A stretch of 32,131 nucleotides of DNA from IMG/VR virus record IMGVR_UViG_3300027608_000094, positions 1-32,131 of that record; one strand, 5' to 3'. The first letter of the stretch is position 1. Every line of letters begins with the position of its first letter. The DNA comes from a virus. The notes under the pieces were generated by a model. It did no database searches and was not told the DNA's origin. It saw nothing but the letters and a program-made list of their open reading frames with translations. Position numbers and translations under genes: made by a program. Of the stretch, positions 26,717-31,552 are shown piece after piece.

Positions 26717-27691
26717 CTAGAAGAACCAATCGTTGGTAGAGTCGTAATTGCCTTTGGCGTGTGACGGCACATACAGTTGCGACTGCTTGAAGTCGTCAAC
26801 AACATCAGACTGTGCACCCATACACCTGCACAACATTCTGTCCTCTGAACAGAACCAACAGCAGTCACATTGTGAACACAGGTCAGCATAGTTTACGCTT
26901 TCCTCGCTGACATACTCAATGTGGTCACAGTTGGCGCAACGCCACAACTCGCCCCACACCTCGTTACCGTCCTTGTCAACATAAGTGCAATCCTCAACAA
27001 GTAAAGATTGGTTGTCCCATATGTCGTTGTCGTACTTGGCATACTTGGTTGTGTCAATACTGTACCGTGAATCAGGTGGTGTCTTACCAGTAGATGTCCA
27101 GCCAGTAGTGTACATACCATGTCCCGAGTAACTGAAACGGTCATACTTGTAACTATTGTTTGACCACCACACACCCTCAACCCAATGCCCGTCGTTCTCG
27201 TTGATGATGTAATAGTCATCTTGAACATCAGGATTGGCAGACAAGAACACAAGTTTAGAACCATCAGCGAACTTGGATAGTTTCTTGCGTGTCTTCTTGC
27301 TGTTGAGTGTTGACGCACCACCCCAACTAGGGAATAATTCCTTAGCAAAGATAGCGGTGTCACTCATACCGTTGCGAGCCGCAATCGGCAACATGCCGTT
27401 GTGTGCTACAACCGTGTTAGTGTCCCTGCCAACTTGGAATGGGTGACAGTTGTTGATGTTGGTACCGCCGTGTGTTGTGATGCGGGAGTGAAACAACGCA
27501 GGACCCGAATGAATTTCTCGTGTCTTGAGGAAGTTATCTAACACGGCATCAAAGTTGAGACCGCTACCTTTCACAATGTGTGTACCAGCATGAACAGCGT
27601 AACCAAACCCGTCAGGGTTGTTCTGTGAACCAATAGTTAATGAATCTACATCCGCTGTTGTGTACTCTTGCATGAATGTTAATAAACACAT
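26717..27691 (-). CDS. Class II glutamine amidotransferase with C-terminal Cys cluster
   Basis: A 324-residue protein. The N-terminal half is an Ntn-hydrolase glutaminase: Cys2 as nucleophile in MCLLTF, NPDGFGYA, then FHSRITTHGGTNINNCHPF (R70, N81), AHNGMLP (N98, G99) and SDTAIFAKEL (D111). These are the standard class II residues, which release ammonia from glutamine and pass it to a partner. The C-terminal third has Cys at 252, 255, 272, 275, 277, 278, 281, 288 and 290, enough for two zinc sites. It lacks a synthase domain, so the acceptor partner is probably the amidoligase encoded five bases upstream. No Asn synthetase, PurF or GlmS partner is visible. Function in the phage is inferred. 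Confidence 0.8.
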   Translation of the reverse strand: MCLLTFMQEYTTADVDSLTIGSQNNPDGFGYAVHAGTHIVKGSGLNFDAVLDNFLKTREIHSGPALFHSRITTHGGTNINNCHPFQVGRDTNTVVAHNGMLPIAARNGMSDTAIFAKELFPSWGGASTLNSKKTRKKLSKFADGSKLVFLSANPDVQDDYYIINENDGHWVEGVWWSNNSYKYDRFSYSGHGMYTTGWTSTGKTPPDSRYSIDTTKYAKYDNDIWDNQSLLVEDCTYVDKDGNEVWGELWRCANCDHIEYVSEESVNYADLCSQCDCCWFCSEDRMLCRCMGAQSDVVDDFKQSQLYVPSHAKGNYDSTNDWFF

Positions 27692-27696
27692 ATTTC

Positions 27697-28884
27697 TTAT
27701 ATGCCTTTCGTTGTGGCGTAAGCGTCAAACGCTTCGTAGCCGTTCTGTTTAGTGAATTGACGGAAACGATCCCAGTCATGACTCTCTCGAATCTTGATGT
27801 TGAACATTTGTGTGACGGCGTACTCCGCAACAGCGTGTACACCCTCTAGTCGTGCTTGGATTGTCTTAGGGTTAAGCGTACCCTTGAAGAAACGCAACTC
27901 TAATGTGTGGCGTGGCTGTAAGTTGAGCGCAACATAACGGTCGTTGTTGGCTTGTCGTTGATTGCCAGGGCGTAAGCCCTTGGCGTAACGCAACATCTGT
28001 GTCGCTTCGTGCTCATCCCATTGTGCGTATGTTGAACGACTACGACCAGCAAGAATCTTCCACTGCTCGGTGTTGTTGTAGAACATAGACATGAAACGAT
28101 ACAGCGATGACTCTCTGCCCTCAAAGAAACCCTTGTTGATGTGAACATGAAGCCCACAGGTTCTTGTAGTAGCAGAACGCATACCCATGTCAGACAACTC
28201 ACGCAATCGTGCGAGAGGCAACACGCTCTGTATGTACTCTTTCGTCATGGGGTGAGATACAACCTCAAACCCATTGCTAAGAGAACCGTCATGCTTGAGA
28301 TAACAAGAGTCACCAAAGATATCTGTCGCAAGTTCTGCACCATCGCTAATGTCGCAACCATCTGCTTCCATTTCCAACTCAAAGCCAGTCACACTAATGC
28401 GTCGTGGTTCTCGCATTGTTGTAAACATCTTGATTTCCTTGGTTAGAACATCAGGACGCATACCGTGAAAGACAGGGTCAGGACGGAAACTGTAGTCGTG
28501 AATGAGTCGTGAACTTTCTTCTCGTTCATCGTCACATGAACATTGAGGTCCGTCATCTATGTTGTAAACACCGTCACAGTATTCACAACTTCCGTACTGG
28601 TCGTAACACGATGGGCAACGCATCTCGTCCCAACCGATGTCCATCATCTCGTCACGCTCAACATACAACTGGCAGTCGTTGCAGTATTGGTATTCGTCAT
28701 CGCAATCCGAACAGAAATACTGTGCGTTACCTGACTCTCGTGCTTCGTTGATGTCCTGTCGTCGCCAGTATGAAGTGTTCTCGTCAAGACGAATAACTAA
28801 TGCTTCAATTAGATGTTCGTCAGCGCAGATACAGCATGTCGCTAGCAGGCTTGGTGGTTCTTGTTCTGTTTCTTGTGTTGTCAT
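27697..28884 (-). CDS. Amidoligase with N-terminal zinc-finger array
   Basis: A 395-residue protein. Residues 15-120 hold 13 Cys in CxxC-type pairs (17/20, 58/61, 68/71, 90/93, 100/103, 115/117), suggesting three or more zinc knuckles. Residues about 165-360 match the putative amidoligase family (PF12224) of the COOH-NH2 ligase superfamily: TGFELEMEADG (E169, E171), LKHDGSLSNGFEVVSHP (H198, D199, E207), TCGLHVHIN (C243, H246, H248), RYVALNL and LELRFFKGTLN. These enzymes join a carboxylate to an amine with ATP, as glutamine synthetase and gamma-glutamylcysteine ligase do. AGGAGG lies five bases before the ATG and the palindrome 28918-28935 is 34 bases upstream. Substrate unknown. Confidence 0.85.
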   Translation of the reverse strand: MTTQETEQEPPSLLATCCICADEHLIEALVIRLDENTSYWRRQDINEARESGNAQYFCSDCDDEYQYCNDCQLYVERDEMMDIGWDEMRCPSCYDQYGSCEYCDGVYNIDDGPQCSCDDEREESSRLIHDYSFRPDPVFHGMRPDVLTKEIKMFTTMREPRRISVTGFELEMEADGCDISDGAELATDIFGDSCYLKHDGSLSNGFEVVSHPMTKEYIQSVLPLARLRELSDMGMRSATTRTCGLHVHINKGFFEGRESSLYRFMSMFYNNTEQWKILAGRSRSTYAQWDEHEATQMLRYAKGLRPGNQRQANNDRYVALNLQPRHTLELRFFKGTLNPKTIQARLEGVHAVAEYAVTQMFNIKIRESHDWDRFRQFTKQNGYEAFDAYATTKGI

Positions 28885-28917: not shown

Positions 28918-28935
28918 GTGTTAGAGGTCTAACAC
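28918..28935. promoter_or_regulatory. Operator-like palindrome, copy 1 (amidoligase cluster)
   Basis: GTGTTAGAGGTCTAACAC pairs eight bases on each side of a central GG. It lies between the stop of the gene at 28969-29223 and the amidoligase start. The core GTTAGAGGTCTAAC is identical in copies 2 and 3. Confidence 0.8.
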
Positions 28936-29599: not shown

Positions 29600-29869
29600 T
29601 TATTTATCTCCTGTATGTGTAGGTAGGTTGCTTATGCCGTCAGGCTTGTATCTGCGTAACAACCTGTCAAACAACACAGCATAAGCCATCTCGTCGTCTT
29701 GTTGTACATCTAATGGTGTGTCAAGTATCTTGTGCCAACTTCCCGTGTCGTCATTCCATAATGGTTTGTTGTACGGAACATTCACAGATGAATCCAATGC
29801 GAAAGACACAACACCATCGGTGATTGTGGCTCGCACCATAAAGTAATGCTCATAATTATTAGTAGTCAT
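29600..29869 (-). CDS. Unknown 89-residue protein
   Basis: A small protein, MTTNNYEHYFMVRATITDGV, then ALDSSVNVPYNKPLWNDD and a helical MAYAVLFDRLLRRYKPDG. No family recognised. The start at ATG 29869 is chosen because GGAGG lies six bases upstream; the ATG six bases before it abuts that site and would leave no spacer, and the first ATG of the open frame (29938) lies inside the upstream gene. It overlaps the upstream gene by 11 bases. It is tightly coupled to its neighbours, in the cluster behind copy 2. Confidence 0.65.
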   Translation of the reverse strand: MTTNNYEHYFMVRATITDGVVSFALDSSVNVPYNKPLWNDDTGSWHKILDTPLDVQQDDEMAYAVLFDRLLRRYKPDGISNLPTHTGDK

Positions 29870-30056
29870 AGTCATCCTCCTCAAAGGTAAACATTTCGTA
29901 GTCTGAAAGGAAGTCTCGCAGACGGATAGGTTGCTCATTTGAATAACGATCGATGTCTAGTTTGTGTAGACATTGTTCAAGGAACCACACGGTGTGATTA
30001 CGCAAACGCATCTTGATTGGAACGGTGAATAGGGCAAAGCGTAAACGCTTGTTCAT
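29859..30056 (-). CDS. Unknown basic 65-residue protein
   Basis: A small protein, basic at the start (MNKRLRFALFTVPIKMRLRN) and acidic at the end (SDYEMFTFEEDDYDY). The frame stays open further upstream to about 30488, but that part overlaps the gene at 30136-30399 and has no start with a ribosome site. The ATG at 30056 overlaps the stop of the 27-residue frame in an ATGA and relies on it for initiation. Sequence before the ATG (LYLLCIRTHNIPPNRKHG) also looks protein-like, so the true start could lie upstream at a rare codon. Function unknown. Confidence 0.5.
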   Translation of the reverse strand: MNKRLRFALFTVPIKMRLRNHTVWFLEQCLHKLDIDRYSNEQPIRLRDFLSDYEMFTFEEDDYDY

Positions 30057-30136
30057 GGCAATACCATGCTTTCTGTTAGGTGGAATATTATGTGTACGAA
30101 TACACAGAAGGTAAAGTGCTGGATAAAGTGTTTCAT
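30053..30136 (-). CDS. Possible 27-residue hydrophobic micro-protein
   Basis: A 27-residue frame starting MKHFIQHFTFCVFVHIIFHL and ending MVLP. AAAGGAGGT, the best ribosome binding site in the window, lies six bases before its ATG (30143-30151). Its start overlaps the upstream stop in TGATG and its stop overlaps the next ATG in ATGA. The hydrophobic stretch could cross a membrane once. It could be a real membrane peptide, a leader that couples translation of the next gene, or the front end of that gene joined by a frameshift. Needs proteomic or ribosome data. Confidence 0.4.
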   Translation of the reverse strand: MKHFIQHFTFCVFVHIIFHLTESMVLP

Positions 30137-30399
30137 CACTTGACCTCCTTTCTCTTAGTTGGGTATGGCTTCCATTGTGACTTGTGGTGACCGCTATCGC
30201 AACGATTGCGACAACAGAAGTCAATGTTCTTTGAGCGCACAGGCTCAGACCAAGTGTACTTGTCGTAAGACTCCCACAGGCTTGGTTGTTCCTGATACAT
30301 ATTGAGAACGCTGATGATGTGATTGTACTCACTATCAACATAGTCCGCAATGTCTGCGATACCTGTTTGCCATTCAGGTATTCCTTTGGTTGTTGACAT
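30136..30399 (-). CDS. Unknown 87-residue protein with Cys/His tail
   Basis: A small protein, MSTTKGIPEWQTGIADIADY, then helical YNHIISVLNMYQEQPSLW, and a basic tail with FCCRNRCDSGHHKSQW. The last part, C-C-x3-C-x3-H-H, could bind zinc. AAAGGA lies nine bases before the ATG. It is the first gene behind operator copy 2, with a hairpin-rich leader of about 90 bases. Ends in TGATG with the next frame. No family recognised. Confidence 0.65.
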   Translation of the reverse strand: MSTTKGIPEWQTGIADIADYVDSEYNHIISVLNMYQEQPSLWESYDKYTWSEPVRSKNIDFCCRNRCDSGHHKSQWKPYPTKRKEVK

Positions 30400-30422
30400 A
30401 TTGCTATGTCCTTTCTACTATC

Positions 30423-30468
30423 TGACCCCATCGTCAGCAACCACCTAAGGTTGTACGCCTCACGGCGT
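30423..30468 (-). promoter_or_regulatory. Three short hairpins in the leader behind operator copy 2
   Basis: In a 90-base leader three inverted repeats follow one another: TGAC/GTCA (30423-30436), CAACC/GGTTG (30438-30453) and ACGCC/GGCGT (30455-30468). Each is short, but three in a row in 46 bases are striking. A structured 5' leader controlling translation or RNA stability is possible. Confidence 0.4.
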
Positions 30469-30488
30469 TTCGGGGAATAGGACATCAA

Positions 30489-30502
30489 GTTAGAGGTCTA
30501 AC
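30489..30502. promoter_or_regulatory. Operator-like palindrome, copy 2
   Basis: GTTAGAGGTCTAAC, directly after the stop of the small gene at 30508-30639 and upstream of the cluster 30399 to 28969. Same core as copies 1 and 3. Confidence 0.8.
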
Positions 30503-30507
30503 ACGCA

Positions 30508-30639
30508 CTATTGTGCGTAGTCAGCATCTTCGTTGAATGATTCGGTGTCAGGCTCTGACTCTGTGATGGCTGGCATCAACAAGTTAATCATTGCTTCATA
30601 CTCTGCGAGTATGTTCTGTTCTGTTTCTGTTGGCAACAT
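30508..30639 (-). CDS. Unknown acidic 43-residue protein
   Basis: A short acidic protein (MLPTETEQNILAEYEAMINL, then ITESEPDTESFNEDADYAQ). AAAGGAG lies six bases before ATG 30639, which decides this start over a longer frame opening at 30783 that would run into the upstream gene. The many Glu and Asp with a single hydrophobic helix recall small DNA-mimic or inhibitor proteins, but this is speculation. It ends six bases before operator copy 2. Confidence 0.6.
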   Translation of the reverse strand: MLPTETEQNILAEYEAMINLLMPAITESEPDTESFNEDADYAQ

Positions 30640-30925: not shown

Positions 30926-30968
30926 TCCAATATTTCTTTCTGTTTATTTCTCCATTAGTAGAGAGTCA

Positions 30969-31030
30969 CACACACGAGCCGAAACCCGTGTGTGCTCACC
31001 GCACTAATGCGTGACACCAAGAACGCTTGG
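30969..31030 (-). promoter_or_regulatory. Three hairpins in the leader behind operator copy 3
   Basis: Inverted repeats at 30969-30994 (CACACACG/CGTGTGTG, loop 10), 31000-31011 (CGCA/TGCG, loop 4) and 31017-31030 (CCAAG/CTTGG, loop 4). The first is the strongest. The same three-hairpin layout occurs behind copy 2. No T run follows on the transcribed strand, so they are not plain terminators. Confidence 0.45.
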
Positions 31031-31039
31031 CATCTAGTC

Positions 31040-31057
31040 AAGTTAGAGGTCTAACTT
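31040..31057. promoter_or_regulatory. Operator-like palindrome, copy 3
   Basis: AAGTTAGAGGTCTAACTT, eight bases paired around GG; core 31042-31055 identical to copies 1 and 2. It abuts the stop of the gene at 31057 and lies upstream of the two genes ending at 30508. Confidence 0.8.
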
Positions 31058-31538: not shown

Positions 31539-31552
31539 GTTAGATGTCTAAC
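31539..31552. promoter_or_regulatory. Operator-like palindrome, copy 4
   Basis: GTTAGATGTCTAAC, one base different at the centre from the other three copies; the arms are identical. Upstream of the gene at 31057-31452. Confidence 0.75.

Follow-up and report, generated by a model that had tools for sequence, protein, structure and literature searches.

A conserved 27-codon frame among the small genes of an uncultivated phage probably encodes a hydrophobic microprotein

A run of very small genes and the position of ORF27

The stretch of DNA analysed here (the window) is a virus record of 32,131 bases; the virus records to which it was compared may be fragments. Its rightward genes include one for an internal-virion-like protein, and its leftward genes displayed matches to RusA, primase, DnaB helicase and exonuclease, followed by an amidoligase-like gene. 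Very small genes then follow one another in a run that extends to about 31,450, and inside this run, on the minus strand, lies the 27-codon frame that we refer to as ORF27. A 395-aa protein (27697-28884) had amidoligase matches in PHROG, and an adjoining 324-aa protein (26717-27691) had a weak PHROG match to glutamine-fructose-6-phosphate aminotransferase (E 0.0036); the two (26717-28884) possibly form a functional pair. The features of ORF27 and its immediate surroundings are as follows.

30053..30136, minus strand: ORF27, putative 27-codon microprotein gene, MKHFIQHFTFCVFVHIIFHLTESMVLP, stop TGA; homologues of exact length and synonymous excess
30143..30153, minus strand: AGAAAGGAGGT, Shine-Dalgarno (SD) site of ORF27; only in the window, L002 and L003
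30069..30077, minus strand: AACAGAAAG, ribosome-binding-site (RBS)-like element of the 65-aa gene, within ORF27; invariant
29859..30056, minus strand: 65-aa gene, MNKRLRFALFTVPIKMRLRN..., in ATGA overlap with ORF27; homologues and synonymous excess
30136..30399, minus strand: 87-aa gene, with the strong SD in its 3' end and a TGATG junction
30508..30639, minus strand: 43-aa acidic gene (MLPTETEQ...DYAQ), which adjoins ORF27 upstream in relatives without the 87-aa gene

The arrangement described in the first-pass annotation, with six-base spacing, a TGATG overlap upstream and an ATGA junction with the next gene, was present in each particular on the minus strand. The SD site (30153-30143) is followed by the spacer CAAGTG and the ORF27 ATG (30136-30134), which overlaps the TGA (30138-30136) of the 87-aa gene (30399-30136). 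At the other end, the ORF27 stop (30055-30053) shares ATGA with the ATG (30056-30054) of the 65-aa gene, which ends at 29859. The site had also been singled out as the best ribosome site in the window, and this was borne out in a scan of 35 plausible gene starts: 11 contiguous bases matched the anti-SD, vs eight for the runner-up, the reference being a 3' end of 16S rRNA that may not be that of the host. AAAGGAGG occurred once in the window, counting both strands.

Two other elements were observed in the small-gene region. The near-palindrome GTTAGAGGTCTAAC lies between leftward small genes at 28920-28933, 30489-30502, 31042-31055 and 31539-31552, three of the four copies being exact and the fourth differing at one position; at up to two mismatches there were eight strand matches (four places) vs 0.12 expected, and the element is possibly an operator or promoter. 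The second, GACTCTCYACTAATGGRGA, stands before small genes at about 30930-31000 (minus strand) in the window and at 4740-4758 in L001, and was found once each in 25 of the 84 loci fetched, many of which are overlapping pieces of the same contigs. By eye, a hairpin-like CACGGGTTTCGGCTCGTG precedes it, and the stretch may represent a conserved RNA leader.

Known relatives of ORF27 form one lineage

Searching with the 65-aa protein identified seven IMG/VR records at 85-88 % identity (L001-L007), and the same seven contigs were recovered when either the amidoligase-like gene or the gene downstream of the 65-aa gene served as the query. A 27-codon frame of exactly the same length, ending in ATGA, was present in all seven records with a close 65-aa homologue. 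Over this stretch L002 equals L003, L004 equals L005 and L006 equals L007, so that there are five distinct sequences including the window. Five other records (L034-L038, of which L034 and L035 are the contigs of L010 and L011) make up a sister group whose relative of the 65-aa gene, aligned for three representatives, is 33 % identical. A search of 12 records for ORF27 gave matches in seven, and none of these was in the sister group. The sister-group homologue is instead preceded by another short gene (MDDLH...) in L010, L011 and L036 and by an intergenic stretch in L038.

The species-genome collection yielded no relatives, and the 50,697 named phage records gave neither a DNA match nor a match to ORF27, with chance-level rows only for the 65-aa protein (E 0.6-0.9). 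Neither ORF27 nor the 87-aa protein had a match in PHROG (E up to 0.01) or Pfam (E up to 0.1). The 65-aa protein displayed only a sub-threshold GP17 score in Pfam (14.6 bits vs a cut-off of 25), and its structure model was poor (mean pLDDT 57.6). One further candidate, L013, had short DNA pattern matches but was rejected as a relative, the encoded 66-residue frame being unrelated. On present sequences, then, ORF27 appears in one lineage of closely related sequences.

The strong SD is linked to the upstream gene

Despite its prominence in the first-pass annotation, the strength of the SD was conserved in just two of the seven relatives, together with the 87-aa gene. This gene lies directly upstream of ORF27 in the window, L002 and L003, with the strong SD in its 3' end. 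The records of L001 and L004-L007 contained no match to the 87-aa gene (0/5), and these same five of the seven relatives had no SD before ORF27 (an AGGAGG farther upstream in L006, unrelated to the ORF27 start, was left out of the SD values). Because gene and SD occur together in the window, L002 and L003 and are both absent from the other five, the strong SD, judged by this distribution, belongs to the 87-aa cassette and not to ORF27. A strong SD does not make the gene; here it arrived with a neighbour.

In the representatives read (L001, L004 and L006), 8-16 nt separate the end of the 43-aa acidic gene from ORF27; the window also has this gene, farther upstream. Translation of ORF27 would be expected in the window given its strong SD, and in relatives lacking one it would probably proceed by reinitiation after the 43-aa gene. 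It is less certain in those five of the seven relatives because they have no SD. According to PMC10666635, reinitiation is nearly abolished at a spacing of about 20 nt, so that at 8-16 nt ORF27 could be coupled to the 43-aa gene, though not assuredly.

Substitutions in ORF27 are predominantly synonymous

Nucleotide changes among the five distinct sequences were assigned on an assumed topology (window with L002, L004 with L006, and L001 between) with parsimony ancestors, and compared with a null in which the same base changes were moved to sites drawn at random among those carrying that base and classed per frame. Across the whole of ORF27, 17 of 31 changes were synonymous vs a null mean of 8.7 (P 0.0006, one ancestral reconstruction); averaging over 20 reconstructions gave 16.45 of 31 vs 8.9 (P about 0.0025), values that derive from five closely related sequences and a single assumed topology. 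The signal was most evident in the first 60 nt, where 14 of 22 changes were synonymous vs 6.3 expected and 0 of 6000 simulations reached this value. No synonymous excess was seen there in the other two frames (3 vs 6.1 and 3 vs 5.7 expected), and the 65-aa gene, used as a positive control, gave 31 of 49 vs 15.6 expected. The lack of stops in ORF27 was by itself uninformative, as 53 % of simulations had none. Within this set of sequences, the comparisons showed the ORF27 peptide to be under purifying selection, with its reading frame, length and ATGA overlap conserved.

An embedded ribosome element and possible coupling to the 65-aa gene

AACAGAAAG spans the last base of codon 20 to the second base of codon 23 of ORF27, where it encodes an invariant T-E-S. 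It was identical in all five distinct sequences and constantly 12 nt before the 65-aa ATG, with spacer bases that vary. In L010, L036 and L038, which lack ORF27, this element recurs 7-10 nt before the 65-aa homologue. The pattern AGAAAGN8-13ATG was enriched in the window (10 vs 2.1 expected), at places including 2956, 9069, 30397 and 30923, not all of the ten being before genes. The phage group seems to use AGAAAG, the 5' part of the SD complement, as a ribosome site, often in the form of AACAGAAAG. The invariance of the element, its sister-group copies and the AGAAAG enrichment together indicate that ribosomes probably enter the 65-aa gene at a site of its own. Accordingly, the T-E-S of ORF27 may be kept constant by a role of the RNA and not of the protein; the codon signal of the first 57-60 nt stands without these residues.

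These observations bear on the earlier suggestion that ORF27 is a translational coupler. In its strict form, ORF27 would be a mere coupler or leader that feeds ribosomes to the 65-aa gene or opens the RNA over its start, and the peptide would be inert. The invariant ATGA overlap (5/5 distinct sequences) and the embedded RBS element are consistent with this, as is the partial pairing of the 65-aa ATG in all five sequences (unpaired probability 0.01-0.33 in thermodynamic folding). Coupling at ATGA and TGATG junctions is also well documented in PMC6728339 and PMC10666635, the former describing it in 13 of 14 pairs tested. However, the sequence of the peptide should not matter to a pure coupler, but of the 22 changes in the first 60 nt, 14 were synonymous vs 6.3 expected; the pairing partners of the ATG differed among sequences, with almost no covariation in the consensus fold; and the 65-aa homologue of L010, L036 and L038 has the same RBS element in the absence of ORF27. 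We therefore regard a purely coupling role as unlikely, whereas coupling as a secondary effect is plausible. A conserved RNA switch over the 65-aa start was rejected separately, as pairing partners differed and just two of 35 consensus pairs had a two-sided change. The helix TTCTG-CAGAA had a probability of 0.00 in thermodynamic folding, contrary to the consensus fold.

Peptide properties and a histidine/cysteine ladder

The proposal of a real membrane peptide held for its coding part (frame, length and amino acids kept in 7/7 relatives, with a synonymous excess), and the membrane location is a prediction from borderline hydropathy. Mean hydropathy was about +1, and the best KD 19-residue window scored 1.42-1.96 across the five sequences, borderline for a transmembrane helix; the four His residues of the peptide were counted against such a helix. 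ORF27 is not an amphipathic helix, because its helical moment was low (0.03-0.07).

H3, H7, C11, H15 and H19 were invariant in all five distinct sequences, in exact i, i+4 spacing, with third-base synonymous changes at H3, C11, H15 and H19. Of 20000 shuffles made for each sequence, only 6-15 placed all H/C in a single class modulo 4, a question posed post hoc. ORF27 might on this basis be a metal-, heme- or proton-binding membrane peptide whose ladder lines an oligomeric helix bundle and alters host membrane function, a proposal that we rate as a long shot; the i, i+4 ladder drifts 40 degrees at each step. When the pattern was used as a search key, 47 stretches of viral contigs matched, seven of them the known ORF27 family. 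No related peptide was recognized among the other 40 viral and six genome-contig matches (translations judged by eye), many of which were His-rich repeats. If functional, the ladder would make ORF27 an unusual minimal membrane peptide, worth synthesizing.

The long frame across ORF27

Two further explanations deny ORF27 an independent product. In the first, ORF27 is open by chance, and the one real gene is the 65-aa gene, extended upstream or begun at an alternative start. Frames as short as ORF27 are often passed over by gene callers, which fits this explanation, and in L004 and L005 the long frame that runs into the 65-aa gene has an in-frame ATG within the 43-aa gene. Translation of the stretch in the other four distinct sequences revealed no long-frame ATG before the 65-aa start, and the codon test and the exact 27-codon length in 7/7 relatives also run counter to a chance frame, making it very improbable.

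In the second, proposed in the first-pass annotation, a ribosomal shift (here of -1) would make ORF27 the N-terminal part of a longer protein that continues in the long frame. As had been reported, the long frame runs through this DNA without a stop (29859-30488), and it was open in all five distinct sequences. This openness is uninformative: the ORF27 peptide leaves little room for stops in that frame, and 82 % of random synonymous recodings left the long frame open; as a mark of a longer gene it was rejected. The long frame over ORF27 displayed no constraint (6 synonymous changes vs 8.3 expected; 3 vs 5.7 in the first 60 nt), and no slippery heptamer of the form X XXY YYZ was found in the ORF27 frame of any of the five sequences. 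With the 65-aa ATG and its RBS element also invariant, the frameshift proposal was not supported, and we consider it exceedingly improbable.

ORF27 as a probable microprotein gene

The synonymous excess in ORF27, alongside a long frame that is unconstrained and lacks a slippery site, argues for a real microprotein rather than a frameshifted N-terminus. With good confidence, we interpret ORF27 as a true gene of the phage, its product being a hydrophobic microprotein of 27 residues that probably sits in the membrane as a single helix, with coupling secondary; it is an ordinary kind of phage gene. The peptide would insert into the membrane, and by analogy with its class might modulate a membrane protein of the host or of the phage in the course of infection, a role that is a guess. 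Ribosomes finishing ORF27 could help to start the 65-aa gene, for which its own RBS would provide an alternative entry. Three kinds of signal thus share one stretch of 27 codons: it encodes a peptide, contains the ribosome site for the gene that follows, and ends in a stop/start overlap. More broadly, a handful of relatives can suffice to demonstrate that a very short frame from an uncultivated phage group is a gene.

Comparison with known systems

The junctions of ORF27 resemble the ATGA/TGATG termination-reinitiation pairs that PMC6728339 and PMC10666635 describe, with a 1-nt overlap upstream, a 4-nt overlap downstream and an intragenic SD-like element before the downstream start. Unlike those pairs, the middle cistron here has just 27 codons, the coupling is putative, and the downstream gene stands without the upstream one in the sister group. 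The peptide in turn resembles the small hydrophobic microproteins of phages and bacteria, a class reviewed in PMC11323111 that includes the ismORF families of PMC11188072, in being very short, hydrophobic, under purifying selection and tightly placed, operon-like, beside a small gene. PMC11188072 describes such microproteins as mainly hydrophobic and potentially transmembrane. In contrast to the microproteins covered there, ORF27 has no sequence relation to any family found, is phage-borne and, in the window, overlaps both of its neighbours.
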